Assembly (NCBI GenBank): GCA_963678705.1
Contig: OY783209.1
Coordinates: 7,006,001 to 7,070,000, forward strand
Reading direction: 5' to 3'
From: Panorpa germanica
Lineage: Eukaryota > Arthropoda > Insecta > Mecoptera > Panorpidae
Length of the DNA: 64,000 nt
The position numbers and the translations under genes were made by a program. Below the pieces are notes generated by a model, which ran no database searches, was not told where the DNA came from, and saw only the letters and a list, made by a program, of their open reading frames with translations. Below, piece by piece: positions 1 through 64,000 of this stretch. How positions within the stretch are numbered: position 1 is the first letter of the stretch; every line of letters begins with the position of its first letter.

Positions 1-834
1 TTCTTATATTCTTATATGTTTACGCGATTCGTATGGTAGCTCGAAAACGGCTCCATGGAAGTTTTTAAAAATTTCCTATTTCGTAGAGAAAAAAATTCTA
101 AGACTTTTGGCGTCCTCGGATTTTTCCCTGAATTTCCTGGAAACCCGTAATTTTGGAAAAACTGGAAAAAAAGTGAACCCTTTTTTGCTGTATTACTTTT
201 AATTCGTAAAAGATAGAAAGTTGAAATTTTGCATGTGTATTAAGGTATTCAATGCTGACATTTTTCAAAAATTAGAAATTCAAAAAGTGAAAAAGGGGGG
301 GTTGAAGAAATTCAGGGGCCCGGTAGGGAACTTTGGAGAAAGTTCATATTCTGGATTCTAGAATAATTAAGTATATTATTAATAAAAAAAAATTCAAAAT
401 TCCAAAATTTTATTTGGGGGCACGGGGGCAGTATTTGCCGAGAGTAAAAATTGTGCCAGAAAGTTGAAATTTTGTATATAGGCTAATCTTGGTAACTTAT
501 TTACGAATCGAAAAAAAAAATCCCAAATTTTGAAAAAAAGTTGGTCAAATAACGCATAAATTGAAAATATTTTTTATTTTGTTAAAAAAAAAAATTTTTT
601 TTAGTCAATTTATATGTCATGTATATGTGCGCGAGTTTATTTATTATTTCAATTTAAACATAGAACAGTTAAATATGAAATGTAATTACGAATTATTTTA
701 TTGGTTTCAAATCATACACGTCAAAAAGACTTCGCTTTGCGACGGGGGTAAACGTTACTGGAATTTAAATTTTTACATGAAGTTCAAGCCACACATAAAA
801 GACAGACGTCGCTTGCGACGGGGGTAAAAGCTAG
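1..834 (+). repeat. Array unit 1, 5' end at or before window edge
   Basis: This unit repeats at 835-1670 with a period of 836 bp and only a few differences. It ends with the hairpin at 807-820 and CTAG at 831-834. A 88-codon open frame at 561-827 is low-complexity and recurs with the repeat; I do not regard it as a gene. Confidence 0.75.
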
Positions 835-1670
835 TATGTTTATATTCTTATATGTTTACGCGATTCGTATGGTAGCTCGAAAACGGCTCCATGGAAGTTT
901 TTAAAAATTTCCTATTTCATAGAGAAAAAAATTCTAAGACTTTTGGCGTCCTCGGATTTTTCCCTGAATTTCCTGGAAACCCGTAATTTTGGAAAAACTG
1001 GAAAAAAAGTGAACCCTTTTTTGCTGTATTACTTTTAATTCGTAAAAGATAGAAAGTTGAAATTTTGCATGTGTATTAAGGTATTCAATGCTGACATTTT
1101 TCAAAAATTAGAAATTCAAAAAGTGAAAAAGGGGGGGTTGAAGAAATTCGGGGGCCCGGTAGGGAACTTTGGAGAAAGTTCATATTCTGGATTCTAGAAT
1201 AATTAAGTATATTATTAATAAAAAAAAATTCAAAATTCCAAAATTTTATTTGGGGGCACGGGGGCAGTATTTGCCGAGAGTAAAAATTGTGCCAGAAAGT
1301 TGAAATTTTGTATATAGGCTAATCTTGGTAACTTATTTACGAATCGAAAAAAAAAATCCCAAATTTTGAAAAAAAGTTGGTCAAATAACGCATAAATTGA
1401 AAATATTTTTTATTTTGTTAAAAAAAATAATTTTTTTTAGTCAATTTATATGTCATGTATATGTGCGCGAGTTTATTTATTATTTCAATTTAAAAATAGA
1501 ACAGTTAAATATGAAATGTAATTACGAATTATTTTATTGGTTTCAAATCATACACGCCAAGAAGACTTCGCTTTGCGACGGGGGTAAACGTTACTGGAAT
1601 TTAAATTTTTACATGAAGTTCAAGCCACACACAAAAGACAAACGTCGCTTGCGACGGGGGTAAAAGCTAG
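835..1670 (+). repeat. Array unit 2, near-identical to unit 1
   Basis: It matches unit 1 almost base for base over 836 bp. Visible differences include one A/G change near 1150 and small changes in the A/T runs near 1425. The high identity points to recent duplication or homogenisation. It ends in CTAG at 1667-1670. Confidence 0.75.
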
Positions 1671-2519
1671 TATATTATAATGTCCGAGGTGTATGTTTAT
1701 TTTCTTATATGTTTATATTCTTATATTCTTATATGTTTATATTCTTATATGTTTACGCGATTCGTATGGTAGCTCCTAAAACGGCTCCGTCAATGTTTCT
1801 GAAAATTTCCTATTTCGTAGAGAAAAAAATTCTAAGACTTTTGGCGTCCCCGAATTTTTCCCTGAATTTCCTGGAAACCCGTAATTTTGGAAAAACTGGA
1901 AAAAAAGTGATCCCTTTTTTGGTGTATTACTTTTAAGTCGTAAAAGATAGAAAGTTGAAATTTTGCATGTGCATTAAGCTTTTTAATGCTGACATTTCTC
2001 AAAAAGTAGCAATTTAAAAATTGAAAAAGGGGGGCTTGAAGAAATTCGGGGGCCCGGTAAGGAACGTTGGAAAAAGTTCATATTCTGGATTCTAGAATAA
2101 TTAAGTATATTATTAATAAAAAAAAATTCAAAATTTCAAAATTTTATTGGGGGGCACGGGGGCAGTATTTGCCGACAGTAAAAATTGTGCTAGAAAGTTG
2201 AAATTTTGTATATAGGCTAACCTTGGTAACTTATTTACGAATCGAAAAAAAAAATCCCAAATTTTGAAAAAAAGTTGGTCAAATAACGCATAAATTGAAA
2301 ATATTTTTTATTTTGATAAAAGAATATATTTTTTTAGTCAATTTATATGTGTTAATGTATATGTGCGCGAGTTTATTTATTATTTCAATTTAAAAATAGA
2401 ATTAAATATGAATTGTAATTACGAATTATTTTATTGGATTCAAATCATACACGCCAAATAGACGTCGCCTTGCGACGGGGGTAAACCCTGAACTTTAAAA
2501 GAGACTTTAAATACTTTAA
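1671..2519 (+). repeat. Array unit 3, diverged, lacking the CTAG terminus
   Basis: It begins with an A+T-rich leader of repeated tattcttatatg-type words, then follows the unit 1 order with many substitutions. It reaches the hairpin at about 2462-2476, but the sequence afterwards (gtaaaccctgaac) has no CTAG and runs straight into another unit interior. Confidence 0.65.
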
Positions 2520-3082
2520 AGAGAAAAAAATTCTAAGACTTTTGGCGTCCCTGGATTTTTCCCTGAATTTCCTGGAAACCCGTAATTTTGGAAAAACTGG
2601 AAAAAAAGTGAGCCCTTTTTTGCTGTATTACTTTTAATTCGTAAAAGATAAAAAGTTGAAATTTTGCATGTGTATTAAGGTATTCAATGCTGACATATCT
2701 CAAAAATTAGAAATTCAAAAATTTAAAAGTGGGGGGTTGAAGAAATTCGGGGGCCCGGTAGGGAACGTTGGAGAAAGTTCATATTCCGGGTTCTAGAATA
2801 ATTATGTATATTATTAATAAAAGAAAATTCAAAATTTCAAAATTTTATTTGCGGGCACGGGAGCAGTTTTTGCCGAAAGTAAAAATTGTGCAAAAAACTT
2901 GAAATTTTGTATATAGGCTAACCTTGGTAACTTATTTACGAATCAAAAATTATTTATTTTTGTATGTAAAATTTATATAGAACAAGTTAAATATTTGAAT
3001 TTTAAAATGGAAATTAAATTTGACATGAAACTAAAGCCATACACAAAAGACAGACGTCGCTTGCGACGGGGGTAAAAGCTAG
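2520..3082 (+). repeat. Array unit 4, 5'-truncated
   Basis: It starts inside the repeat at the gagaaaaaaattctaagac segment, so the 5' third is missing. A shortened interior leads to the full 3' hairpin and CTAG at 3079-3082. Confidence 0.65.
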
Positions 3083-3850
3083 TATATTATAATGTCCCAG
3101 GTGTTTGAATCTATTCTTATATTCTTATGATCTTATATGTTTGGTACTGAATTTTGTATGGCAGCGCGAGAACGGCTCCGGCGATCTTTTTAAAAATTTC
3201 CTATTTCGTAGAGAAAAAAATTGTAAGACTTTTGGCGTCCCCGGATTTTTCCCTGAATTTCCTGGAAACCCGTAATTTTGGAAAAACTGGAAAATTCGAA
3301 AAAATACTTTTGCAAATATCTGACGAACTAGAAAAGATAGAAAACTGAAATTTGGTATGTGTATTGAGATTATAATTGTGCACATTTTCCAATAGTTGGA
3401 AATTTGAAATTTGAGTTCAGTAGCGGCGCGAATTTTTGGGGGCAATGTTAGAATAGAGTTAGGACGTTCAAATTTAATATGTAGGCTCGCTGTAGACAGT
3501 AATTAATGAAAAAAAATAAACAGCCCCAAATTTCCAGTGGCGGCGGGAGTTGAGACAGTAAAAGCCAAAAATATTGAAAATGTAGTATTATAACTTAGGG
3601 TATGTATTAAGACACTAATTGCGCATGTTTGCCAATAATTGGATTACCAAAATTTTAATTCAGTAGCGGCGTGATTTTTTGGGGGCAATGTCGCAACAGA
3701 GCTAGCACGTTGATATTTGGAACGTGGGCCCTATATAGAGTGTCATTAAAGACACACTATAGAAAATTGCAACTTTCCAGAGGCGGCGGGCGCTGGGGGC
3801 CAAAGACCAGAAATATAAAATATATAGAGATAGGGCTATAGTTTAAAAAA
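3083..3850 (+). repeat. Array unit 5, variant interior with internal duplication
   Basis: The first 220 bases match the other units. The rest is a different module containing two diverged direct copies about 245 bp apart; the motif cagtagcggcg, followed by a T/G run and gggggcaatgt, appears near 3419 and 3661. It looks like a second subfamily sharing the same 5' end. Confidence 0.6.
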
Positions 3851-4768
3851 TATCCTGTATTATAATGTTCCAACTGTTTGAATCTATTCTTATATTCTTA
3901 TCCTATATTATAATGTTCCAACTGTTTGAATCTATTCTAATATTCTTATATGTTTATATGTTTGGTACTGAATTTTGTATGGCAGCGCGAAAACGGCTCC
4001 ATCAATGTTTTTGAAAATTTCCTATTTCGTAGAGAAAAAAATTCTAAGACTTTTGGCGTCCCCAGATTTTTCCCTGAATTTCCTGGAAACCCGTAATTTT
4101 GGAAAAACTGGAAAAAAATTGAGCCCTTTTTTGCTGTATCACTTTTAATTCGTAAAAGATAGAAAGTTGAAATTTTGCATGTGTATTAAGGTATTCAAAG
4201 CTGACATTTCTCAAAAATTAAAAATTCAAAAATTGACAAAGGTTGAAGAAATTCGGGGGCCCGGTAGGGAACTTTGGAGAAAGTTTATATTCTGGATTTT
4301 AGAATAATTAAGTATAGTATTAATAAAAAATAATTCAAAATTTCAAAATTTTATTTGGGAGCACGGGGGCAGTATTTTCCGAGAGTAAAAATTGTGCTAG
4401 AAATTTGAAATTTTGTATATAAGCTAACCTTGGTAACTTATTTACGAATCGAAAAAAAAAATCCCAAATTTTGAAAAAAAGTTGGTCCAATAACGAATAA
4501 ATTGAAAATATTTTATATTTTGTTGAAAAAAATATATTTTTTTAGTCAATTTATATGTGTTAATGTATATGTGTGCGAGTTTATTATTTCAATTTAAAAA
4601 TAAAGTTAAATATAATATGTAATTACAAATTATTTTATTGGATTCAAATGATACACGTTAAAAAGAACCTTTGTGACGAGGGTAAACTGTGGTGGAATTT
4701 AAATTTTTACATGAAGTTCAAGTTACACACAAAAGACAGACGTCGCTTGCGACGGGGGTAAAAGCTAG
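3851..4768 (+). repeat. Array unit 6
   Basis: The leader (tattataatgttccaactg) is present twice, near 3858 and 3907, showing a small duplication at the 5' end. The body follows unit 1 order and ends with hairpin plus CTAG at 4765-4768. Confidence 0.65.
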
Positions 4769-28177: not shown

Positions 28178-28187
28178 AATTGAGAAA
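28178..28187. repeat. Left target-site duplication (10 bp)
   Basis: The sequence aattgagaaa is repeated exactly at 28801-28810 on the other side of the chimeric insertion and lies immediately before the first base of U6. Confidence 0.85.
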
Positions 28188-28282
28188 GTTCTTGCTTCAG
28201 CAGAACTGGAAACGACACAGAAGATTAGCATAGCCACTGCGCAAGGATGACACGCAAAATCGTGAAGTGTTCCACATTTTTT
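28188..28282 (+). pseudogene. U6 snRNA pseudogene
   Basis: It starts with gttcttgcttcagcagaac and contains the conserved U6 core gaagattagcatagcc, ctgcgcaaggatgacacgca and tcgtgaagtgttcca, ending in a T run. About 13 bases expected after the 5' stem-loop (the atatactaaaatt segment of U6) are missing, and there are substitutions in the core. It therefore cannot be a normal spliceosomal U6. It starts at the exact U6 5' end and is joined to LINE sequence at its 3' end. Confidence 0.85.
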
Positions 28283-28287
28283 AAAAC

Positions 28288-28545
28288 ATGAGAAGGATTG
28301 CCAGATTTAGATTGCGAAACGAGAAGAAAGGAAACAGATATTGGGCAAATAGCGAAGAAAGTATGTGTAGAGTGTGCGGAACGGAGATTGAAACATTGAA
28401 GCACATTAAGTTTTCATGTCAGAAAAAAGTAATGAGCAAGAAGAATATTGTGCAGTTATTAAACGGAGGCAGTGAAGGAAAGTGGAGGATGGCGGAAATA
28501 GAGAAAAGGAACGAGGAAAGAGAAGTAACGCCAGAGCAGAAGTGA
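28288..28545 (+). pseudogene. 3' fragment of LINE ORF2 (C-terminal zinc-knuckle region)
   Basis: The 85-codon frame begins IARFRLRNEKKGNRYW and contains a Cys-x2-Cys-x8-His-x4-Cys motif (CRVCG then ETLKHIKFSC). This matches the C-terminal region after the reverse-transcriptase domain in Jockey/R1-type insect LINEs. The polymerase and endonuclease domains are absent because the element is 5'-truncated at the U6 junction. The rest, about 250 bp to the (aat)n tail, is the LINE 3' UTR, with aaagccgaaaggcgaa just before the tail. The clade is uncertain. Confidence 0.7.
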
Positions 28546-47200: not shown

Positions 47201-48837
47201 CAAATATCAAATTTTAATAATCTTATAGAAATTTACTTTAATTTAATTTTTAAATTTAATTTTATTCACATGTAAGAAAAGTCCTTATTCTACAGTTTCT
47301 TATTGAAAACCGATATCGAGACATATACGTAAAACTTATTTTTGATAATCGTAAATATTTCTTAGTCCTATATTTTGTTTCATACATTTAGAAAAGCATT
47401 AACGTAGGTTTTCTTTGACTAATTCTAGAATATTATAATTTGGCAATTCTAAAATATAATAATCCAATATGCAACAATTTTTTTATTTCATTTTTTATAA
47501 TAAAGCATTTCATATCATTTTCTTATTTTTTTTTTTCTTTAATTTTCTTCAAACACTTTCCATAACTTAGCGAGTTTTTCACATATTCTTATCACACAAT
47601 TCTTTAAATTTCATTCCTTACTAAAAATCTTATATACACACTTAATCTAGAAACCTGAACATCCTAATTCAGACTACGACGCACAAACGTCTCGACGACG
47701 TCTTAAGATGGGATAGATTACAGATCAAAGATCAAAGATCGACGTCGTGCTCTCGGTCATCACACTAAAGTATAAAACTGGTTTAACCTTAGAATTATTA
47801 TTGGGGCACAGCAAATACTAGTGTTTTCTTAATGGTGTGTAAATCTAGAAAATTTGTGTACAATTATACACAATACGTTAATTTATATGCGACTTGAAAA
47901 ATCCTATCTAAAACACTAGGAAAAATGTATAGTATTAATATATTATATCATTATCATTATATCTAGTATAAATGTTATAGAAAATCCTATGAATCTAATT
48001 ATTTATTCTCTTATATTTTTTACACTTACTTAATGTCGTGTAGAGCTATATTTAACGCTCTAAGAATGCCGGAACTTTAAGCCCGACTGTTCTTTATCGA
48101 AAATCAATTTGATTTTTACCATAATTTAGTATATTTTAAAACGCTTAGTATGCACTATGTATATAAAGACTAAAATTACTTTTCTCCTGCTCGTACGAGC
48201 ATCTCCTTCTATCAATCAACATTCACACTGTTGCCACACTGTAGACACACGATTTAAGTTGTCTGTACGCCATTAGCGTTTCATTAGCGCCTCTCATTCC
48301 TGTTGTATTACTTGTTACACGTTATATACATACAATACATATGTATATATAAGGGAAGCATATGTTAGTGTTGCCACATGAAGTGAAATATTTCACAATC
48401 ACACTTTAAAACATATGCTATTTCAAAAATATAAAAACCAAAAAAATAATCATGAATTTTTAAAAAGCAAGTGATTTCATAACTCAATAATATAAAGAGA
48501 ATTAGATCCTAACCTAAAATAAAGCGACTATTGGGACGTCACTGCTCGTGGTCCCTTGATGAAGATTTGTGATAACAAAAATTAAAATAGAATAAACTTT
48601 TCAAATGTCTGGAAAATAAATGCCAGACTAATAACCATTGATAAAGTAAAACTATATTTATACAAAAAATCAAAAATTATAATAATTAAAAATAGAATAA
48701 AAAACTGCAATTAAAATGGTTAGCTTCAAAATGTAACCTCCGATTCAAAAACAACTCACGGAGATCTCCGAACGTGATCGAGAATTTAATTTCATTTAAT
48801 TTAATTTATCAGTAACCATTCCAATTACATTAATAAT
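44270..48837. other. Gene-free, probably includes the headcase 3' UTR
   Basis: The part next to 48838 lies immediately downstream of the headcase stop codons on the minus strand, so a 3' UTR of unknown length is expected here. I cannot place the polyadenylation site. It also contains a long G run followed by ggatac repeats near 45102-45135 and an inverted pair aaacattgaccgcatt/aatgcggtcaatgttt (about 46348 and 46518). Confidence 0.4.
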
Positions 48838-49497
48838 CTAACTTATTTGATTAAGGTAATTAATGAACTCGTTAGAAAAGAGTTGTAGACAGGAGTCAGA
48901 AGCGCAGGTGTCGCTGCCTGTTGCCCTAGGTCTCTGCTGGAATATGGGAGCGTTGTTTGGAGGATTGTTTAGAGATCTGTGCGTCTTGTACGAGGGTAGC
49001 GCAAGTGGTTGACTTGCCGTGAAGATATCGCTCAATGGTTTGTACTTAAGACGGGACGCGTTAGACGAGGACGTGTTAATGGATGAAGAAGCTGCAGAGC
49101 TCATCTTGCCGAGATCGTTGGATCCGCTGAAGAGCATGGATCCATTAACGGGTTTGTTGACAGGATTCAAGGATGTCAGGGAGGACAACGAGGACAGGGA
49201 TGACAACGAGGAAAGAGAAGACAACGAAGCAGTTGCAGAGGAGATGGGTTTGGAAATCACTGGTCCAGGTGAGGTAAGTTTTGAAGGTTGGATGATGGAC
49301 GAACTCGGGTAAAGAGGTTTTGAGGACTGACGGACGCTGGAGAGAGTGGAGGAGGGAACTCTGTCGTAGAGGCGGTTACTTTGTTGTGATGCTGTTGTTG
49401 AGGTTGTTGTGGGAGGTGGAATTTGGAGAGCGCTAAGTGAGAGACAACTTGTGACTGGGGCAGCTGGTCGTACCTGCGTGCCTAGGGTGGCATTGTG
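48838..49497 (-). CDS. hdc: headcase readthrough extension (219 codons)
   Basis: Continuing in the same frame after the TAA at 49500-49498, the sequence is open for 219 codons and ends at TAG 48840-48838. The first codons read HNATLGTQVRP. The middle is rich in Ser, Pro and Thr with a run of Ser-Leu/Ser-Ser-Leu repeats at about extension residues 89-106. The end reads SCLQLFSNEFINYLNQIS. Many codons end in C or G although the flanks are A+T-rich, as in the upstream exons. No domain is recognised; it looks mostly disordered. In Drosophila, hdc is known to produce a longer protein by reading through a UAA stop, and that product is needed in tracheal branching control. Translation here is inferred, not shown. 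Confidence 0.75.
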   Translation of the reverse strand, partial: HNATLGTQVRPAAPVTSCLSLSALQIPPPTTTSTTASQQSNRLYDRVPSSTLSSVRQSSKPLYPSSSIIQPSKLTSPGPVISKPISSATASLSSLSSLSSLSSLSSLTSLNPVNKPVNGSMLFSGSNDLGKMSSAASSSINTSSSNASRLKYKPLSDIFTASQPLALPSYKTHRSLNNPPNNAPIFQQRPRATGSDTCASDSCLQLFSNEFINYLNQIS

Positions 49498-49671
49498 TTA
49501 TGGCCACTGCTGGTAAAGCTGTATGGCCTGTTTGGTGTAACAGTAGGCCAACGACTTGACGAAGTGATTATCCTGGACGTGGCAGAATGGACAATTCACT
49601 GTATGGCTGTAATCGCTGAAGAAGTTCAGACGCTGATGCGGATGCAGCAATGGCTTGTAGCAATGGTTGCA
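49498..49671 (-). CDS. hdc: headcase, exon ending at the first stop codon
   Basis: Acceptor tttttcacag precedes the TGC codon at 49671-49669. The exon gives 57 codons before TAA (49500-49498), in phase with the upstream exon. It begins CNNCYKPLLHPHQRL and contains FFSDYSHTVNCPFCHVQ and NHFVKSLAYCY; two Cys-x2-Cys pairs are visible. These match the last part of the headcase domain, and vertebrate HECA is known to end shortly after the HFVK segment, so this TAA sits at the ancestral C-terminus. The base after TAA is C, a context associated with weaker termination. A short GTGGC/GCCAC stem could form around the stop. Confidence 0.9.
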   Translation of the reverse strand, partial: CNHCYKPLLHPHQRLNFFSDYSHTVNCPFCHVQDNHFVKSLAYCYTKQAIQLYQQWP

Positions 49672-51082: not shown

Positions 51083-51271
51083 CTTATTTCTTTCTGCACA
51101 ACATGGCATGGCAGCGAAAATATCGTAGGAGTACATGGTTCCCAATACTAGGGAAGAGCCGTCCCACTTATGATTGCAAAATCTGCACCAAATAACGCGT
51201 CCAGGAGTTCCTCCTTCTAGACAACCCATACACACTGCGGAGAGATATTGGGTGCGACCCTCAACCTTAAC
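51083..51271 (-). CDS. hdc: headcase, internal coding exon (63 codons)
   Basis: A 189-bp exon with acceptor ttgttttag before GTT (51271) and donor gtaagt after AAG (51083). It encodes VKVEGRTQYLSAVCMGCLEG, then an Arg-Val-Ile-Trp-Cys-x2-Cys stretch, WDGSSLVLGTMYSYDIFAA and MPCCAERNK. The Cys-x2-Cys pairs and the WDGS, LGTMY, YDI and PCC motifs are the core of the Headcase domain shared with vertebrate HECA. Both ends are phase 0, so it could be skipped or duplicated without frameshift. Headcase is a cytoplasmic protein that acts with Unkempt downstream of nutrient/TOR signalling and restrains growth and differentiation in fly imaginal and stem-cell lineages; that role is from the literature. 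Confidence 0.93.
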
Positions 51272-53259: not shown

Positions 53260-53448
53260 CTCGACGCAGCCCTTAGCATGTTGTCTGGGACTTAAGAAGA
53301 AAGTGCCATCTACCAGTGGATAGCGATCAAAGACCAACATCACTTCCTCACAAAGGACGCAGTTTACACGAGATTTCTGCTGAGCGGCTAAAGTGGACAA
53401 GATGAAGCATCTTGTGTCGTCGTTGCCATGATTTCCTTCATCCTCCAT
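53260..53448 (-). CDS. hdc: headcase, first coding exon visible in the window (63 codons)
   Basis: A 189-bp exon with acceptor tttgttacag directly before ATG (53448-53446) and donor GAG|gtgagt at 53260. It encodes MEDEGNHGNDDTRCFIL, a Cys-x2-Cys pair (NCVLCEE), then FDRYPLVDGTFFLSPRQH. The LVDGTFFLSP motif and its spacing match HECA. The ATG is probably an internal methionine, not the start: the acceptor abuts it and HECA has a Met-Glu-Asp at the same place inside the protein, with several hundred residues before it. The upstream exons with the N-terminal HECA domain were not found between here and base 64000. Confidence 0.92.
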
Positions 53449-53553
53449 CTGTAACAAAAATAAAACAGATTATTAAATATGCGACTACTGTTTATCGAAT
53501 TACATAAATTGAAAAAACTCAAGAAAGTTACAGAATTTAAGGGGGCGGTAAGG

Positions 53554-54197
53554 TTTCATTTTTTTTTTATTTATTTATATTATTGTACAACATATTAAGT
53601 TTATTGTGTGAAAATTTGAAGTCGATTGGAGTAAAACTGTCGAAGATATAGAGTTTTAAGTCTTCACTTCTCTGGTCTGCTTTCGTGTTACTTTGAAAAT
53701 TTTAAATGCGGTTTTTCACACTTAGCTTTTTCAGAGTAGGTGCCCTCTCTAGCTCAAAATCTACTGGACCGATTCTTTTGAAATTTTGTACACTCTTTCT
53801 TTACATAAATGCCGAGGTAACGCTGTCGAGTTTCTTTTTAGTTTTTAATTTTAACGTATTTTAAAATAACAAAGTTTCTGATTTTTTTTATGAAAAATCG
53901 GTATTTTGACTTTTAAGTGCTGTAAAATTTTTAAAAAGCAATCTGCAGAAACTTATCAACTAATGAAATCATTTTGGATTTTCGATTTCAAAATATCCAG
54001 TGATGAGTTATGAGTTTCACCGCAATGTTACTTTTTTTTGTGACGTCTGCGGAGGTTCGCTGTCAATGCCTCATTTCTTGACATTTATTTATGAAAACTT
54101 CACAAAATATTCTTCTAATATCATTTTATCATGTAGTAATTATAGAAATAATTATATATTAACTGAGTTGTTAAAAAACATTATCGAAAATATGCTT
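53554..54197 (-). repeat. Intronic inverted repeat, copy 2
   Basis: Reverse-complement partner of 49716-50384. It lies 106 bp upstream of the acceptor of the exon at 53448, in opposite orientation to copy 1. Confidence 0.8.
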
Positions 54198-57100
54198 CTT
54201 TTTTATGCCGCTTAATACACAAGAACACTGCTTTTCTTTTACAGATTTTAACAGCATCTTTCTAAGCAAATAACCTTAAAAAATAAGTAAAGGTGATATA
54301 TACTATACTATACTATACATTTATTGGTAGACATTTTCCTTTAACTTTTACCCTTGTGTGTAACCACAAAAAATCAAGTTTTTTTTTAGTCTTATGGTTT
54401 ATGACTTTACTAAAAATAAAACATTTTAAAATTAAATGTATAAAAGCTGAATAAAGTCAATGTTTGTCTGTCGGCGGGTGGAATCTAGATTCTAGAATCT
54501 GCTAGTGACAGCGGTTTAATGAACGACGAAAATACTTTTATGTTACCTTTTAATGGCAGACAGATATACCTGTAGCAGGTAGATGTGTATATTGGAACGA
54601 CAAAGCTCTGCACAGTTCAACGAACGAAAATCACCGTTCCCAAAGTATTATTAATTGAAAAGAAATTTAGTTATACAACTTCAATATATTGTATTGTTTG
54701 GGAAATAGCAACATTTTATATATAAGGTATATTATCATATTTTCAGCAATTTCACAAAACATTCTCTTCTAAGAAGGAAATCACTTTCAATGTGATGATA
54801 TCATGTACCAACCCTATCATAAAACCACCCTCACTATCCGCCCTTCCAGTTTCTCTGTTAAATTGCCCTTAAAATTGTGAGACACTTTAATTATATGTAT
54901 CTTGTTAATGCAGTTCACATCTGCATAACACATTTTCTCTCTTTTTATTATTTTGAATGCAATTTCTTTAAGAGAGAAAGAGAGAGAATACTAAGAAAAG
55001 GAGACGACTAGCTGAGTACAACTATTTCATGAGAGATGCAGTTTTGTTGTATAACATTAAAGCAGTTTCCGCCAATGTATGGTTAGTTTTATCACTAGGT
55101 GCTTTGAATTTAAACTGCCTTATATCGTTTTTACGTTGGTAGACTTTACTGGTGGTACTTGTAGCTAGCTTCAGACCCTTTATACTTTGAGATATGTTAA
55201 ATATCGTAAACTTCTTTTATAGTTTTTAGTATTTTTTTTAAATTAGCAAGTTTGTTTTTGCAACACTTAAAAAGTTTAATATAGTTTTATTATATTCATA
55301 CATAGTCATTTACTTTATAAATTGTAAATATACATTTAAAATAACGTATTTATTATATAACTTAGAATATTATTTAAATTTGTTTATGTAAAAAAACAAA
55401 AATATTACCTTTTATTACTGATTATACATTTAATGTAAATAAAGCTTACTAATACTTTATTTATAATTTAATTGTAATATTTCTTAACAAGCTACTTTTG
55501 TTAGTGATCATAATTGAAAATAGTTTTTGACAATATTATATATTAGTTTAATATGTAATATTACACAACTGTTTACATTAGACGTGGATGCGTAGACGGT
55601 TAAGTTATAAATGGTAAACGTTTGATGTTTATTCAACGACTATTGTGGCGATTGATTTCAGTTGTGAACTTCAAAGCTGTCAGATTGTAACTGTCGTCAA
55701 AAAGTGTCCATTCCAAGAGGCAAGAGAAGGGTATTAAATTATTAATATAATTGTTTTCTGGGAAAAAAAATTATTTTGATTTAATAAAATTACTGAGAAT
55801 AATAATGTAGAAGAATTGAAGAATAATTGTGTTAAAAAATATTTTAAAGAAGCTACAGTATAGCTATTAAATTATTAGAGTTAGTTATTAAAGGAATAAA
55901 GGATAGTAAATTAATTTCTGAACCTATTCATGCTTCTATTCAAGAATTAGAAGAAATGTAATTAAGGTTCCTCTAATTTGGTTATTAAAAATAAAAATAG
56001 AGCAAGAGGTGCTATTATTTAACAGAGAACGACATAGTTACAAAGCACGTGACCTGTCATGAACAATGATGTCGTTGAATGTCGATGAATGATGTCGTTA
56101 CGACACGATTGCAAGCGATATCTGTTTAATAAACTTGTAAAATAGATAAGAAACCTGGAATAATTATAAAAATAAAAATATATAATACAATATATTAAAA
56201 ACAAAAGATTTTTAAAAAATCTAGAACTGCAGACATAGTTTAATTCTGACAATTTTGAACCACTAAATTTAATGAACATATATTTATTAAAATAATCATT
56301 TTGAAAAGTACATCACGTCATATTATATAAAATAATGTTAGATCTCAAAATTTATCTGCATGGCTTTAAAGACGATAATATATAATTACTAATTCTCTTT
56401 TTGACAAATGCGCTAGTAATTAATATTCACACGTAATGAAGTTATCTCTACGTACGGAGAGCATAATAAATTAGACAATAATTCATAATAGTGAAAAGCA
56501 TTTACCAGACTCTCCTAGTCTGGTTGAAGAGGTGAAACCACAAAAGGAACAAAAGTCTCAGGAAAACTATTTCGAAAGACAAGTCAAGACAAGTTCGCGT
56601 TAAAACAGAGACGACTACGACAGTACGAGTGCGATGAACAAGCACGACTCCTACTTCAATCAAATGAAATTGTTTGGTTAAGAACAGCAAGTTGGAAATA
56701 CAAGCTTTTGTTCTTCAACGTTGGAAATACGTTCCAGTGTATGTAGTAAAGACGTTCCAAAACTTTAATTAAAGAAATTGTTTAAAAGTTGAACTATGTC
56801 ATTTCCAGAGTTGATGGTGTCGCGCAGACTAAATTATTACATTAAGTTAGATTCATACGGTCTGCTGTCTATATGACAAAAAATGTTTTTGTCTAAAAAA
56901 AATAGAAAACGAGAATACTTGCGATTAGTGAACAAATTGTACTATAGTAGTATTGCTATAAAAATAATTTTTATTTATTTGTTAGCTTTTATCACAAAGA
57001 ATTATCAACAGATATTTTTTGATGTGACACAATCGAGTAATCTTATAATCGTATAATCGTGCAGCCAGCTATTATATGACGACCAGTAGAGAGAAACGAC

Positions 57101-60100
57101 CAACTTCTGTCAAACGCATTCATTACAAATGACTGATTCCTTTTATTTCTTCCGTTCTTCTAGTTCTCCTGTTTTCCACTAAACATCTCCCCCTCCACCC
57201 CCCTCTCGACCCTTCATACAAAAATAACTGACAGCATTTGCTGTATCTCAATCCGCTGAAATGTCAAGAGTTGACAGGAAATATCTATAAGACAGTTACT
57301 AAAATGGTCACTGGTGGAAAGAATAACCGGAAGTTGTAGTAAAAACTATTAGATGTTGTACAGTCAGCTTGGATTAATATAAAAGTTTGCTAAAAGTCAT
57401 GTATAGTTCAAATTAGGAGAGTTCGGCAACGATTCTCTGATTGAGAAATATTCAAAGGTATAGCTCTAAAAATAATTTTAAAAAAAAGATAACAAATGGC
57501 CCATCCTAAACAAGACTCGGATAAATTACAGATGCTTAAAACAAATAAAATATTTGTAGAATATGTATTTTCATTCCTTGTAAAAACGTATAAAATATTG
57601 TGTGTCCGTCCATCCGTCGGTCTCTCTAACTGCACTGCATAAAGAAGCTGTAGAAGTATATTTTTCTGTAATCTTTCTTTTTCCCAGACATATAATTTTT
57701 ATTTTATAAGTAAAAACTGTTTTTATCATAGAAACTATCAAGTCTTGTTAGTACTTAGAAATAAAATCCATTCTAGAATATGAACTCTAATCTGATTTCA
57801 TGTCAATGCCAATACGTTTCTCCGTAGTTTTCTGTCTCCGTTGATCGCCGCCTCCTCCTCTTTCAGCACCCCGCCCCGTCGTTTATCTTCCTAGCTATTC
57901 TTCGTCCGTTATTAATACAGTTAATGACAGCTGATGTCACATGTACGTAAGCTGTACCTTCACTAGATGAGGAAGATTGCATCAAATATTAAATTAAGTT
58001 GACAGATGATATGATATATCCCCCAGCCCCCTGCCAACTCTGTATCTCTCTCCACCCCAACGTATTTTCTATATTTCTAATTGCATTTTTATAAAGAGGT
58101 TAAAAATCGATTATTATGATTCTGTTTTATTTTTTGTTAAATATTTGTACGTTAGCTAAGCGCTCTTAAAGTTAGTTTAAAACGTTATGCCTGTACTCAG
58201 CCGTTGGGGCAAGTGAACTTGTTTATAATTATTATAAAACGTCATTTATTAAAAGGGTCGCGATGGTGTGCGCAGTAAGGTCTGATCGTGAGTCTACCTG
58301 GAACCATTATTGGTGCAAATGTTGGTGGTAATAGCAACCGCTGGACTTCAAAACGTGAAAATTTGTTCCTTAGTCATACAAAATTAATGATTCCTTATTT
58401 GTAGACATTCCCGAGCAGAGTCAGATACATGGATCGTGTACCAGCAAGATGAAAGAAAAACTGCACGCTTGTATTGTGGAATAAAAATACAAATATACAG
58501 ATATTCATAACACATGATTTGTCTAACAATACAAGTTAAATTAAATCATGAAGTTATTCTTTCGGCTTCATGTTTTACTATTTGGTGCTGGTGTAACAAA
58601 ACAGGATTCGACTGTTACAATATTTTGAAAATTCTTAATTTAAATAAATTCGTGTGGGATTGTTGAACTATGTTTAACACCTTTGCACATTGGCTGCATA
58701 ATATTTACATCCGGATAGTTTTGCAATGTCAATAATTAGAAATGAAAATTTACTTATACAAATTACTATTTTTAAGAAGGTTTTGTGTGTTGCCTATATT
58801 AAAAAACAAATGAATATCACAATGGTCTAATTACAAATTACAAAATAAGGCGTTGAGATTGGCTAAATACAATGTCAGATTTTACCTATTATAAACCGAC
58901 AACATTTGAGAGGACGATAGTTCAAAAAAGCGATGTATTCATACATAGATATGCAGAATGAATAAAATATGAAACAATTTAAAGCACAAAAAAGATTTAA
59001 AAATTGTTGTCTGCAAGTCGACGACTGGAAATGTGTAGTTGACTCAAAAACCAAAGCTGTCATTTGCGGAATATTTAATATTCCGACCACAAAAATCATA
59101 AATAAGTTTTATGTATGGCGTCGTTGTTACTGCTTTCATACGACAAGTAGAAAATGCTGGAATACGGGAATATATATATGTGAATGCAGGAATACGGGAC
59201 CGCCGACGGTGCTGCCAACAATAAACACTAAGAAAAGTTGTAATTCACAGTCAGCGGTGTGCGCGAGACAATTTACACGTCGGTGTAAGAAGGAAAGTGG
59301 TTTTTCGTAAGTTTAAAGGAAATTCAGCCTGTCTACATTCAGAAATATGTTAGCTATTACGACAGAAGTAACAATTTTTTGTGTATAATTTTTTTGATAT
59401 AACTTATAAATGCGTAGACGACGATTTCGTAAATAACAGCTCGTGCAAGCAAGAGAGATTTGTGTTGAATTTGCATTAGTAACGGATTTTGTTAAATAAT
59501 TCTGAATATGTCAAGAGTTTGGGCTAAAGGTACAGAAAGCACTTTAACAATGTTCAAAAAGATCAAAGATACCTCTTTTTTACAAGTAATTTATTATTTC
59601 GAGCCATTCCTAGTTACGTAGTTTAAATTTTATATTTTAACCTTTAAAGAAAATTTCACCTTGTGAAATATAAATAAGTGAAAATAATTAATATTAAAGA
59701 AAGTATATTACTGACGCTTGACGCTTATTACTACTGTTAAAACTTAAACAGTAGGTGGGAATGGTGGTCTACACCAATAAAAAATCTAACGTTTCCTTTT
59801 TGATAATCCAGAAAATTAATTTTACTAGTAGATTAGCAAATTGAAAGTTTCTCGATATGGGATATGGTTAAGCAACTACCTACTACGCTATAAATTTATA
59901 ATACCATGAAAAACTACTGTTTCATTAATTTTTTTAATATTATTTTTATATTTATGATTATTAGCTTAATACGGGTCTTATAACCTGTTTTAAGGATGAG
60001 TGACTCTCGCAAATTGAACTATAAAAGTAATATTTTTTAAATAAATCTATTTGTCATCTTCAATTCTTAAAAATCATTTTTAGTAAAACATATAGTTTGA

Positions 60101-60701
60101 AAATGACTCTTATATAGAAGCTTTAAAATTCTAGTATATAGAAATTTAATTTTATATACCGAAATATTCTTTCATAGTACGAAACGAGGAATGGTTTTGC
60201 CATGGACACATACATTTTATATGTCTTTCTCTTCTTTTTGTATATTTCAGTTCGAGCCTGTGTATTTTCTAGTTAAATATTAATGTTCAACTTACAAAAT
60301 TAATTTCAGATATGCATCTGTCATGGCGAGTATTTTCAAATAAAGTACAAAATTTAACTGTCATATTTTTTAACGTTGTTTGAATAAATCGTGAAAACAT
60401 TATTAGATAAAAATAAATTCAACTGGAGTTCCTAGACAAGTTAAGAGTTAGAATATCATAAAGTCAGTCGTACGGTATTGTCAGTCTAGTTTGTCTAGTC
60501 TGTCTGAATGTCTGATATCCAAATACATTACGCTAATAACTTCAGATCGGAATGGAGATATACTATTAAAACATTCAAGAATGATTTAAATCGGTTTGTG
60601 AATTAAGCGAAACCTATGTGAAAACATTTTTATAAGTTTATTTTTGATTAGTAACTAATTTTACACTATAGGGAAACGGAACATGTTTTCTGCATCTTTA
60701 A

Positions 60702-61143
60702 TGCCGGTTTCACACCAGAGTTTTGTTGTCAAAAAACAAAACAAAAACATATTTTGTTTTATTTAAAAACAGTTCTGTTTTTCGAAAACAGAACTGTTCA
60801 TACTGAACAGACTGCATTTGTTTTTAGTGTTTTTCTTGTGTTTTAGTTTTTAGTGTGTCCCATAAAAATTATAAACATGATAAACAACAACTGACAAGCA
60901 CAAATGTTCACAAAAAACAAAACTGCGTGTTCAAACCAAGTAGACTAAAAATCAACTACAAACGTGTTTTTTTCCTTTGATCTTACTGACTTTAGATGGG
61001 AATGTGTTTTGTTTACTAAAACAATTTTTAAAGACAAAAATGTTTTAAGAACTGTCTCTTTGGTGTAATGATTGGTGTTTTTGTTCAGAAAAACAGTTTT
61101 GGTTCGTGTTTTCTTGTTTTGTCTCTTTGGTGTGAAACCGGCA
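60702..61143 (-). mobile_element. PIF/Harbinger-like MITE, copy 2
   Basis: A 442-bp element whose termini (tgccggtttcacaccagag and its inverse) match copy 1 at 26746-27144 and whose interior matches that copy in reverse complement. It is flanked by TAA at 60699-60701 and 61144-61146, a 3-bp TWA duplication. Confidence 0.75.
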
Positions 61144-64000
61144 TAAGAAACAGACCATTGCACACAAAACATCCGCTTGAGCATAGACCGACTTACGGTT
61201 CATATGAAAAATTTGTAAACAGTCAAAATCTAAAAAATTAGTACCGCAAGTACATTAATAAATATATATATATATTCAAATTTCTAGATGACCTTATGCT
61301 GGAAATAAATAAATAATCTTATTTATAGCATGTACGCTTTTATCAAATCAAATTACAATTTACCGGCTGATTGTTCACCAATTGACAACAAATATCTCTT
61401 CAACACATTTTTGTTATCACAGATCAACGATTCTATTATTCTGATCATCCCCCCAAATTATCCACGATGACAATATCTATGCAAATGTCTAAACAGAATC
61501 ACTCAATAAGAATCTTTTAAATGTAAAATCATCGTATAAACACGTTTAGATTAAATTCCTTCCTTTCCAAACAGGATGCCGTACTTTGTGATTAAATGAA
61601 CGCATTCTTTTAAACAATCGGCTCATTTATGTGCTTCCAATTTACACTGAAATCACATTGTGTGACATACCGTTTACCGTCGTTCTACTTTTGTTAGCTA
61701 CAAGACAATTACCGTATTCTCGACTTAACATATATATTCTATGGATGCATATTATCATATATAAATGTAGTGTTCTAAAATAGAAGCACAGGTATTCGAT
61801 TCTTTCACCGATGAGTATGCAAAGCGGAGATAAATTAGGATTAAATTGCTGTGAAACTGGCTAGAGCTTAATACAAAGCATCGTTAATATTTTCAATTGG
61901 ATTCTCGTTGCTCCCCGTTACCCCCCAACCTTCTACCACTTTTCAATATGGTTCCTGCTGTTCGTTTATAAGTACTTTTGTACATTTACCAGCTAGTTAG
62001 ACAGTTTCGTAGTTACAAATGTTTTTATCGTAGAGACATTAAAATTAGTAGACATTTACGACATTTTGTATTAGTCTGGGAAATAAAATATGTTCTTTTT
62101 TTTATTTTTGCTATTCACAAATTTCATTAATTCTTATAACGGTCTAGTGTTGTCAAGACATAGTGGAATTACATGGAATTACATACAATTTATTCCTTTT
62201 ATTGATTCTTCAAGACACGAATAAGATTTCAAACGATCTGTAAAATCAATACATTTTTCGTTTTTTATTGAAGAGATCCTTGAAGAAGATCACAGAAAAG
62301 CAAATGCTTTAAATCTCCTAAAAATTTTGAATAATTAATATTATTCGTTATCGTGGTAACTTGAGTCTTCATAAGCGTCCAGCGATCAGCTTGTACAATC
62401 TTTGATAAAAGTATTTACTTGCTTATGAAGGTTAAACACGTAACGATTTACCTGGCAGGGATACTTGAGCAGATTGCCTGTACAGGTAAACCAGAGAATG
62501 TATGTGACACAACTAAAGAGATAACTGTACAGTTTTATCACATGTAAAACATTCCATTTCTTGAATACCGCCCTCTAATTCAGAATTGAAATGTAGAATA
62601 TATTTATTTATCTTAGTAACGTTATATTCAACTTAAATTCTTTAATACCGTTATGAAATTTTCTATAATTTTCCACGTGATACAGCTGCAGTACTTTAAT
62701 AGGATTACTCATGAGAATTTCGCCAGATTTACAAGTCACTACCGGGCAATAAAGATAGCGCAACTAAGCGGATAACAACACGAAAAGTACTACAACGAAA
62801 AGGAAAAGGAAATGCATTTTATGTATTAAAATAAAAAGCTTTGAAACTCTTGTACTGTGAAAAACAAGGGATATAAAAAATCACCCCAACTCCTATTATA
62901 TTCGTTTAACCTAACTTTAAAATTAAATAAGCATAAAATGCCTTTTTTATTGAGAATTACAACGAGTGCCGGGTTGATACCTACCAGGGTCGGGAGGGGT
63001 AAAAGGTGGGATGGGGTGATGTTTCGTAGACTGTGAAAGTGTGCAGCGTAATCGAAAATTATGAGATTTAAAATTAAAGTTTAATTTAACGAAAAGAAAT
63101 AAACAATTTGTCTTTCTTATTTTTACATAATTAAATGGATTTGTAAAACACTCTTGTTTAATCCCTGAAAAGAAAGCATTATACGTAATAAATCGGATTA
63201 TATGTTAATTAAATGTCCAATCGAAGGAAAGTACAAGAATATGATTCCACTTGGGGTCGATTACTTCCAGTTATTGCAAAATATAAAAAGAATCTTATTC
63301 AAAAAGATGCAGCCAAGAAAGAAGTCCACTTTAATATCCCAAATTTGAATTATCGCCATAAGAAAAACTTAAGTTGCTGCCATTCCGAGAGGTTACGGAT
63401 TAAACTCATTATATGGAGTGTCTTTCGTTTTAGGCACATTTTTTCGCCAACTTAGAAAATATGCCCAATTTCATTGTGCTACAGCGCGCTTGTTGTTGGG
63501 TTTAGAGAAAACTTGTAAATGTTAAACTTGTTCAAAATTTTGTCCTCTTTAAGATTGATAATAACTACCAAAGCTCTAAAACCAACCAATGCGGAGATAT
63601 TGAAAGAAATCATTAAAAAAAATGAAAGAATTGATACATGATCATATTCCAGTCATATGAAAAACAGTCCAAAGCGCACATCAGCCGTAAGACGGACGCT
63701 CATCCTTATATCTAAAGAAGATATTACTCAAAATAACAAGAGTAGAGTATTTGAACCAACTAAACGTTTTTATATATTTTTTATTTAATAACTTTTAGCA
63801 ACCATAAATTTCCTTACATTTTCCTTCGCGTAACTAGCTTTTCCAACGTCTGTTTATATTTATTTTTCCAGCACATGCTGTCACTAATAGTGAAGAAGTT
63901 CTTTCTTCATAATGTCCGTATAAATTCTTTAATAAAAGAACATCATCTTTACTCTAAGAGCACCTTAGTGACTGAAACAACAACTTTAGAACGGGCGTTT

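Follow-up and report, generated by a model that had tools for sequence, protein, structure and literature searches.

Readthrough of the headcase (hdc) stop codon is established in Drosophila, and was among the early examples of functional readthrough to be described in animals. There, the stop codon that is read through is UAA. The HDC protein of D. melanogaster has 649 residues followed by an extension of 430 residues, which is predicted to be 64.8% disordered (PMC4999894). The long product is reported to be required in tracheal development (PMC7244557), and stem-loops are reported to be both sufficient and necessary for the readthrough (PMC8417969).

Jungreis et al. (2016) infer that readthrough is abundant in all Anopheles and Drosophila species, and in most of the other insects that they tested (PMC5100048). 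According to the same report, ancient cases of readthrough are enriched in TGA, and readthrough of TAA and TAG has been lost more often. In dfr (drifter/vvl), UAG is reported to be followed by CAA UCA and by a conserved stem-loop that spans +9 to +59; in constructs derived from that gene, UAA was the least readable, or tightest, stop (PMC13170385).

Here, the locus is hdc of Panorpa germanica, as found in a window of 64,000 nucleotides (the whole stretch of DNA that was analysed). Like its Drosophila counterpart, the gene belongs to the PF16002 family and has a stop that is followed by a long in-frame extension. Unlike that counterpart, it has an extension that is half as long (219 residues versus 430) and no supported downstream stem-loop. 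It resembles the insect and crustacean readthrough genes, as PMC5100048 reports them, in having a conserved in-frame extension, and departs from the enrichment in TGA among the ancient ones in that its stop is TAA. It resembles dfr in the long extension after a stop that has C as the next base; it differs from dfr in that TAA is followed by CACAAT, and in that a loop of the +9 to +59 type is unsupported. The kind of event is, of course, known, both from fly hdc and from the readthrough that is reported to be common in insects, and Panorpa hdc would be a further member. In the literature searched, we noticed no report of hdc readthrough or of conservation of its extension outside of flies; the supplementary lists of PMC5100048 might name the Anopheles orthologue.

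The headcase gene

The gene is headcase. Its PF16002 Headcase domain is spread over three exons, whose matches are consecutive and together take in profile positions 32-198:

53260..53448, minus strand: hdc coding exon B, 63 codons, phase 0 (PF16002 E 2.4e-33, profile 32-98)
51083..51271, minus strand: hdc coding exon C, 63 codons, phase 0 (PF16002 E 5.4e-26, profile 97-158)
49501..49671, minus strand: hdc coding exon D, pre-stop, 57 codons, phase 0 (PF16002 E 5.5e-13, profile 158-198)

Exon B is bounded by an acceptor that ends in TTACAG and by the donor GAG/GTGAGT; the donor of exon C is AAG/GTAAGT. These are strong sites. With a scoring matrix that is a general consensus and is not fitted to this species, the donors score 11.8 and 12.0, ranking 3 and 2 among the 3269 GTs of the minus strand, and the acceptors score 9.5, 11.3 and 11.4, ranking 19, 2 and 1 among 2866 AGs.

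Residues 1-41 of exon D are the end of the Headcase domain; between the end of the PF16002 profile and the TAA lie 16 residues. This position is compatible with the earlier suggestion that the stop marks the ancestral C-terminus of HECA. Three minus-strand frames across approximately 54198-64000 (an interval that leaves out 53470-54197) gave no Pfam match to N-terminal HECA exons; those exons may lie outside of the window.

Exon D also gives a weak match to PF12760 (E 0.067), and a scan of genome_contigs gave one match, a Bradyrhizobium locus with 35% identity to exon D. This likeness possibly reflects a zinc ribbon shared with IS1595-type transposases, to which the weak PF12760 match would point.

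The stop and the open frame beyond it

The frame of exon D runs into a stop, and then stays open to a second one:

49498..49500, minus strand: first in-frame stop, TAA, then C (TAA CAC AAT)
48841..49497, minus strand: in-frame extension, predicted readthrough ORF, rich in Ser, Pro and Thr, 219 codons, with homologue P0001
48838..48840, minus strand: second stop, TAG

On rereading, the coordinates and strand given by the first-pass annotation, its TAA-C, and its counts of 57 codons before the stop and 219 codons after it, all proved exact.

The extension is the longest stop-to-stop frame of the window, with a runner-up of 141 codons. The first-pass annotation had called the chance of such a frame tiny in A+T-rich DNA. 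This stands at the window-average stop rate, where the probability that a given frame stays open for 219 codons is ~10^-6.7. The extension, however, has a G+C content of 49.5%, against 30.2% for the whole window, and when its dinucleotides are shuffled, 37 of 20,000 sequences (about 0.2%) are still open. Thus, taken by itself, the open frame says less than was claimed. The statement that the extension shares the C- or G-ending codons of the exons was correct in part: the extension has a GC3 of 0.51, versus 0.67 in the last exon, and the GC2 of the extension (0.56) exceeds its own GC3.

Serine makes up 24% of the encoded polypeptide, proline 10% and threonine 8%. No polyadenylation signal (AATAAA or ATTAAA) occurs within the extension; the first ATTAAA beyond it is at 48805.

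Facing the extension's Ser/Leu repeat, an antisense frame is open for 99 codons (49013-49309, plus strand), encoding the acidic sequence REDNEDRDDNEEREDNE. This frame is likely to be a by-product of an 18-base repeat at 49177-49227.

Conservation of the extension as a protein

The extension was searched against ~5.8 billion proteins, with the 8000 candidates that were best in shared words being scored, at E values up to 1. Among these 8000, one homologue emerged: P0001, a protein of 165 amino acids from a Logan contig (E 7.5e-5). Further homologues may have been missed by scoring 8000 candidates. The likeness to P0001 is concentrated in two blocks:

49360..49380, minus strand: conserved block SNRLYDR, extension residues 40-46, identical to the 7-mer at P0001 residues 13-19
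48841..48921, minus strand: conserved C-terminal block TGSDTCASDSCLQLFSNEFINYLNQIS, extension residues 193-219

In the C-terminal block, the last 26 residues of P0001 align with the last 27 of the extension, with 20 of 27 identical, and both proteins finish on the same serine. When this block is removed, the rest still aligns at a score of 80. In 2000 shuffles, scores averaged 46.9 and reached at most 79, one point below the real alignment. A common 7-mer of any kind arose in 6 of 5000 shuffles. P0001 begins near extension residue 30, leaving the first 29 extension residues with no counterpart, and the middle of the extension is diverged from P0001 and unequal to it in length. The two blocks are nevertheless colinear, with a spacing between them that differs by 27 residues, and therefore the reading frame has been held through insertions and deletions. 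This pattern, in which blocks are kept and the middle is changed, would fit a tail that is disordered and carries two functional motifs.

The extension therefore looks to be conserved as a protein, as judged from one homologue compared at the protein level. The first-pass annotation had staked its proposal on such conservation, and in P0001 it is present. This homology is stronger evidence than the open frame itself. A frame open by chance within a G+C-richer 3' UTR might have been suspected from the shuffles that stay open and from the finding of one homologue, but the two colinear conserved blocks and the identical C-terminal residue in P0001 make such an accident highly improbable.

Nor is it credible, except at the very margin, that the extension is translated on its own through internal initiation. 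P0001 is listed as starting from an internal Met, which may be only the choice of a gene caller. The first in-frame Met of the extension is residue 121, downstream of SNRLYDR at residue 40; this placement counts against initiation at an internal ATG.

Other searches were negative. Two narrower protein database searches gave zero matches and missed P0001 as well. P0001 shares eight 5-residue words with one of these narrower queries and eleven with the other (the eight, plus three from SNRLYDR). Because a protein sharing these words was missed, the scarcity of further matches is evidence neither way; the miss is probably a limit of the candidate step. Scans of viral_contigs with exon B, exon C, exon D, P0001 and alignment A1 gave zero relatives, and tblastn gave zero matches for exon D in phages and for P0001 in plasmids. 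The extension matched nothing in the PDB at E up to 1, and nothing in Pfam at E up to 0.1; the one Pfam match to P0001 was insignificant (E 0.4).

The C-terminal peptide

The conserved peptide at the end of the tail, SCLQLFSNEFINYLNQIS, has residues spaced as in an amphipathic helix. The helical hydrophobic moment of the last 18 residues was equalled by 66 of 5000 shuffles for the extension, and by 23 of 5000 for P0001. From this moment, one might guess that the peptide is an amphipathic docking helix. It is, in any case, a candidate for the working part of the extension in hdc.

One survey reports that readthrough extensions lack conservation among orthologues, as that statement appears in PMC4999894. 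A peptide that is kept to its last residue, while the middle of the tail has diverged, would be an exception to that survey. The two conserved motifs, kept through the last residue, may be new; in the literature searched, we found no paper that treats SNRLYDR together with headcase.

A wider proposal is held more tentatively, at somewhat less than even confidence. Here, SCLQLFSNEFxxYLNQIS would be an old insect interaction module that belongs to the readthrough isoform only. In distant insects alike, a single UAA would then have served to switch a docking motif on or off, and the switch would work in Panorpa without the large stem-loop of flies.

Routes past the stop

Translational readthrough probably takes ribosomes past this stop. 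Most ribosomes would terminate at the TAA to deliver the Headcase protein. A fraction would decode the TAA as an amino acid, translate a further 219 codons in the same frame, and terminate at the TAG. The resulting long isoform would be Headcase joined to a Ser/Pro/Thr-rich tail that is probably disordered. This tail would carry SNRLYDR and the C-terminal peptide, the latter as a putative docking motif that is present in the long isoform only.

Readthrough is the likeliest route because a stop plus an extension is also the layout of the fly orthologue. Given the identity of the gene, the open frame and the conservation of the tail, which are read from the sequences directly, it is the best explanation of how the stop is passed. 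The C after the TAA and the lack of polyadenylation signals within the extension also speak for it. Counting against it are the single homologue, the empty narrower searches, the UAA, the CACAAT at +4 to +9, and the lack of a supported stem-loop.

The same tail could, of course, be reached by alternative splicing that bypasses the TAA, joining exon C, or a donor internal to exon D, to an acceptor in the extension. Candidate sites are not scarce. There are 266 internal donor-acceptor pairs that remove the TAA in frame and introduce no new stop, and 60 of these keep both conserved blocks; for exon C, eight phase-0 acceptors lie in frame within the extension, and one of them (49473) keeps both blocks. 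The sites are, however, weak. The best pair that keeps both blocks (donor 49599 with acceptor 49473) scores 2.9 + 4.4 = 7.3, and the next (49507, 49432) scores 6.0, whereas the real introns score ~23 each (11.8 + 11.3 and 12.0 + 11.4). Among minus-strand GTs, donor 49599 ranks 424 of 3269 and donor 49507 ranks 1386; among the 2866 AGs, acceptor 49473 is in place 301. A splice from exon C to 49473 would, moreover, remove the last 57 codons of Headcase.

Of the acceptors in the extension, 49336 is the strongest; with a score of 10.1 and a rank of 10 among 2866, it is on par with the real ones, and it is in frame with donors 49555 and 49507. It is, however, out of frame with exon C, and its in-frame donors score at best -0.7. 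Further, splicing to 49336 or to 48936 drops SNRLYDR. Thus, where splicing in frame would excise the TAA and retain both blocks, the sites are all weak, and a spliced route is improbable.

Quite improbable also is the view that the gene is otherwise one continuous ORF, interrupted by a TAA that is an error of sequencing or assembly, a recent nonsense mutation, or a codon removed by RNA editing, such as A-to-I. The stop is known from a single assembled sequence, and P0001 was compared as protein alone; PMC5100048 reports that counts of readthrough in a single genome are confounded by nonsense sequencing errors. Against this, the fly gene is reported to have the same stop and extension (PMC4999894), and the Panorpa TAA sits shortly past the end of the Headcase profile.

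RNA structure around the stop

For readthrough, the first-pass annotation had offered two RNA pairings, a GTGGC/GCCAC stem enclosing the stop and a second pairing downstream. Neither was borne out by folding. In single-sequence folds of 48 windows, 50-150 nt in length and offset by 0 to 30 nt from the first base of the stop in the downstream direction, no stable structure of the hdc type was found just after the stop: z-scores ran from -1.57, a fold matched by 5 of 100 shuffles, to 0.80, and two further folds near the stop gave z -1.00 and -0.84. The GTGGC/GCCAC stem is worth -5.5 kcal/mol on paper and is absent from the minimum-energy fold of the 110 nt around the stop. This hairpin takes in bases 5' of the stop, and a ribosome in the act of terminating would be expected to cover those bases. 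The six bases at +4 to +9 after the TAA are CACAAT.

The conserved C-terminal peptide and the missing clear stem-loop are the less expected features of this locus. Passage beyond the TAA might use a structure that single-sequence folding misses, a factor acting in trans, or readthrough at a low level. If readthrough persists here without the stem-loop, then recoding can outlast the RNA signal that promotes it, as that signal is turned over; turnover of this kind is reported for other genes (PMC5100048).

Other features of the window

At 28184-28542, a full-length match to U6 snRNA (model positions 1-105, 98 bases) has a T tract that almost abuts an ORF. The match of this ORF to zf-RVT is weak (E 0.0013), its 19.8 bits lying below the curated cut-off of 27.5. 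Together, the two look like a chimera of U6 and a non-LTR retrotransposon, as might be formed by template switching.

At 4-4540, five to six repeat copies run in the same direction, mostly with start-to-start spacings of 690-898 bases, and are 60-100% alike over reference pieces of 300 bases.
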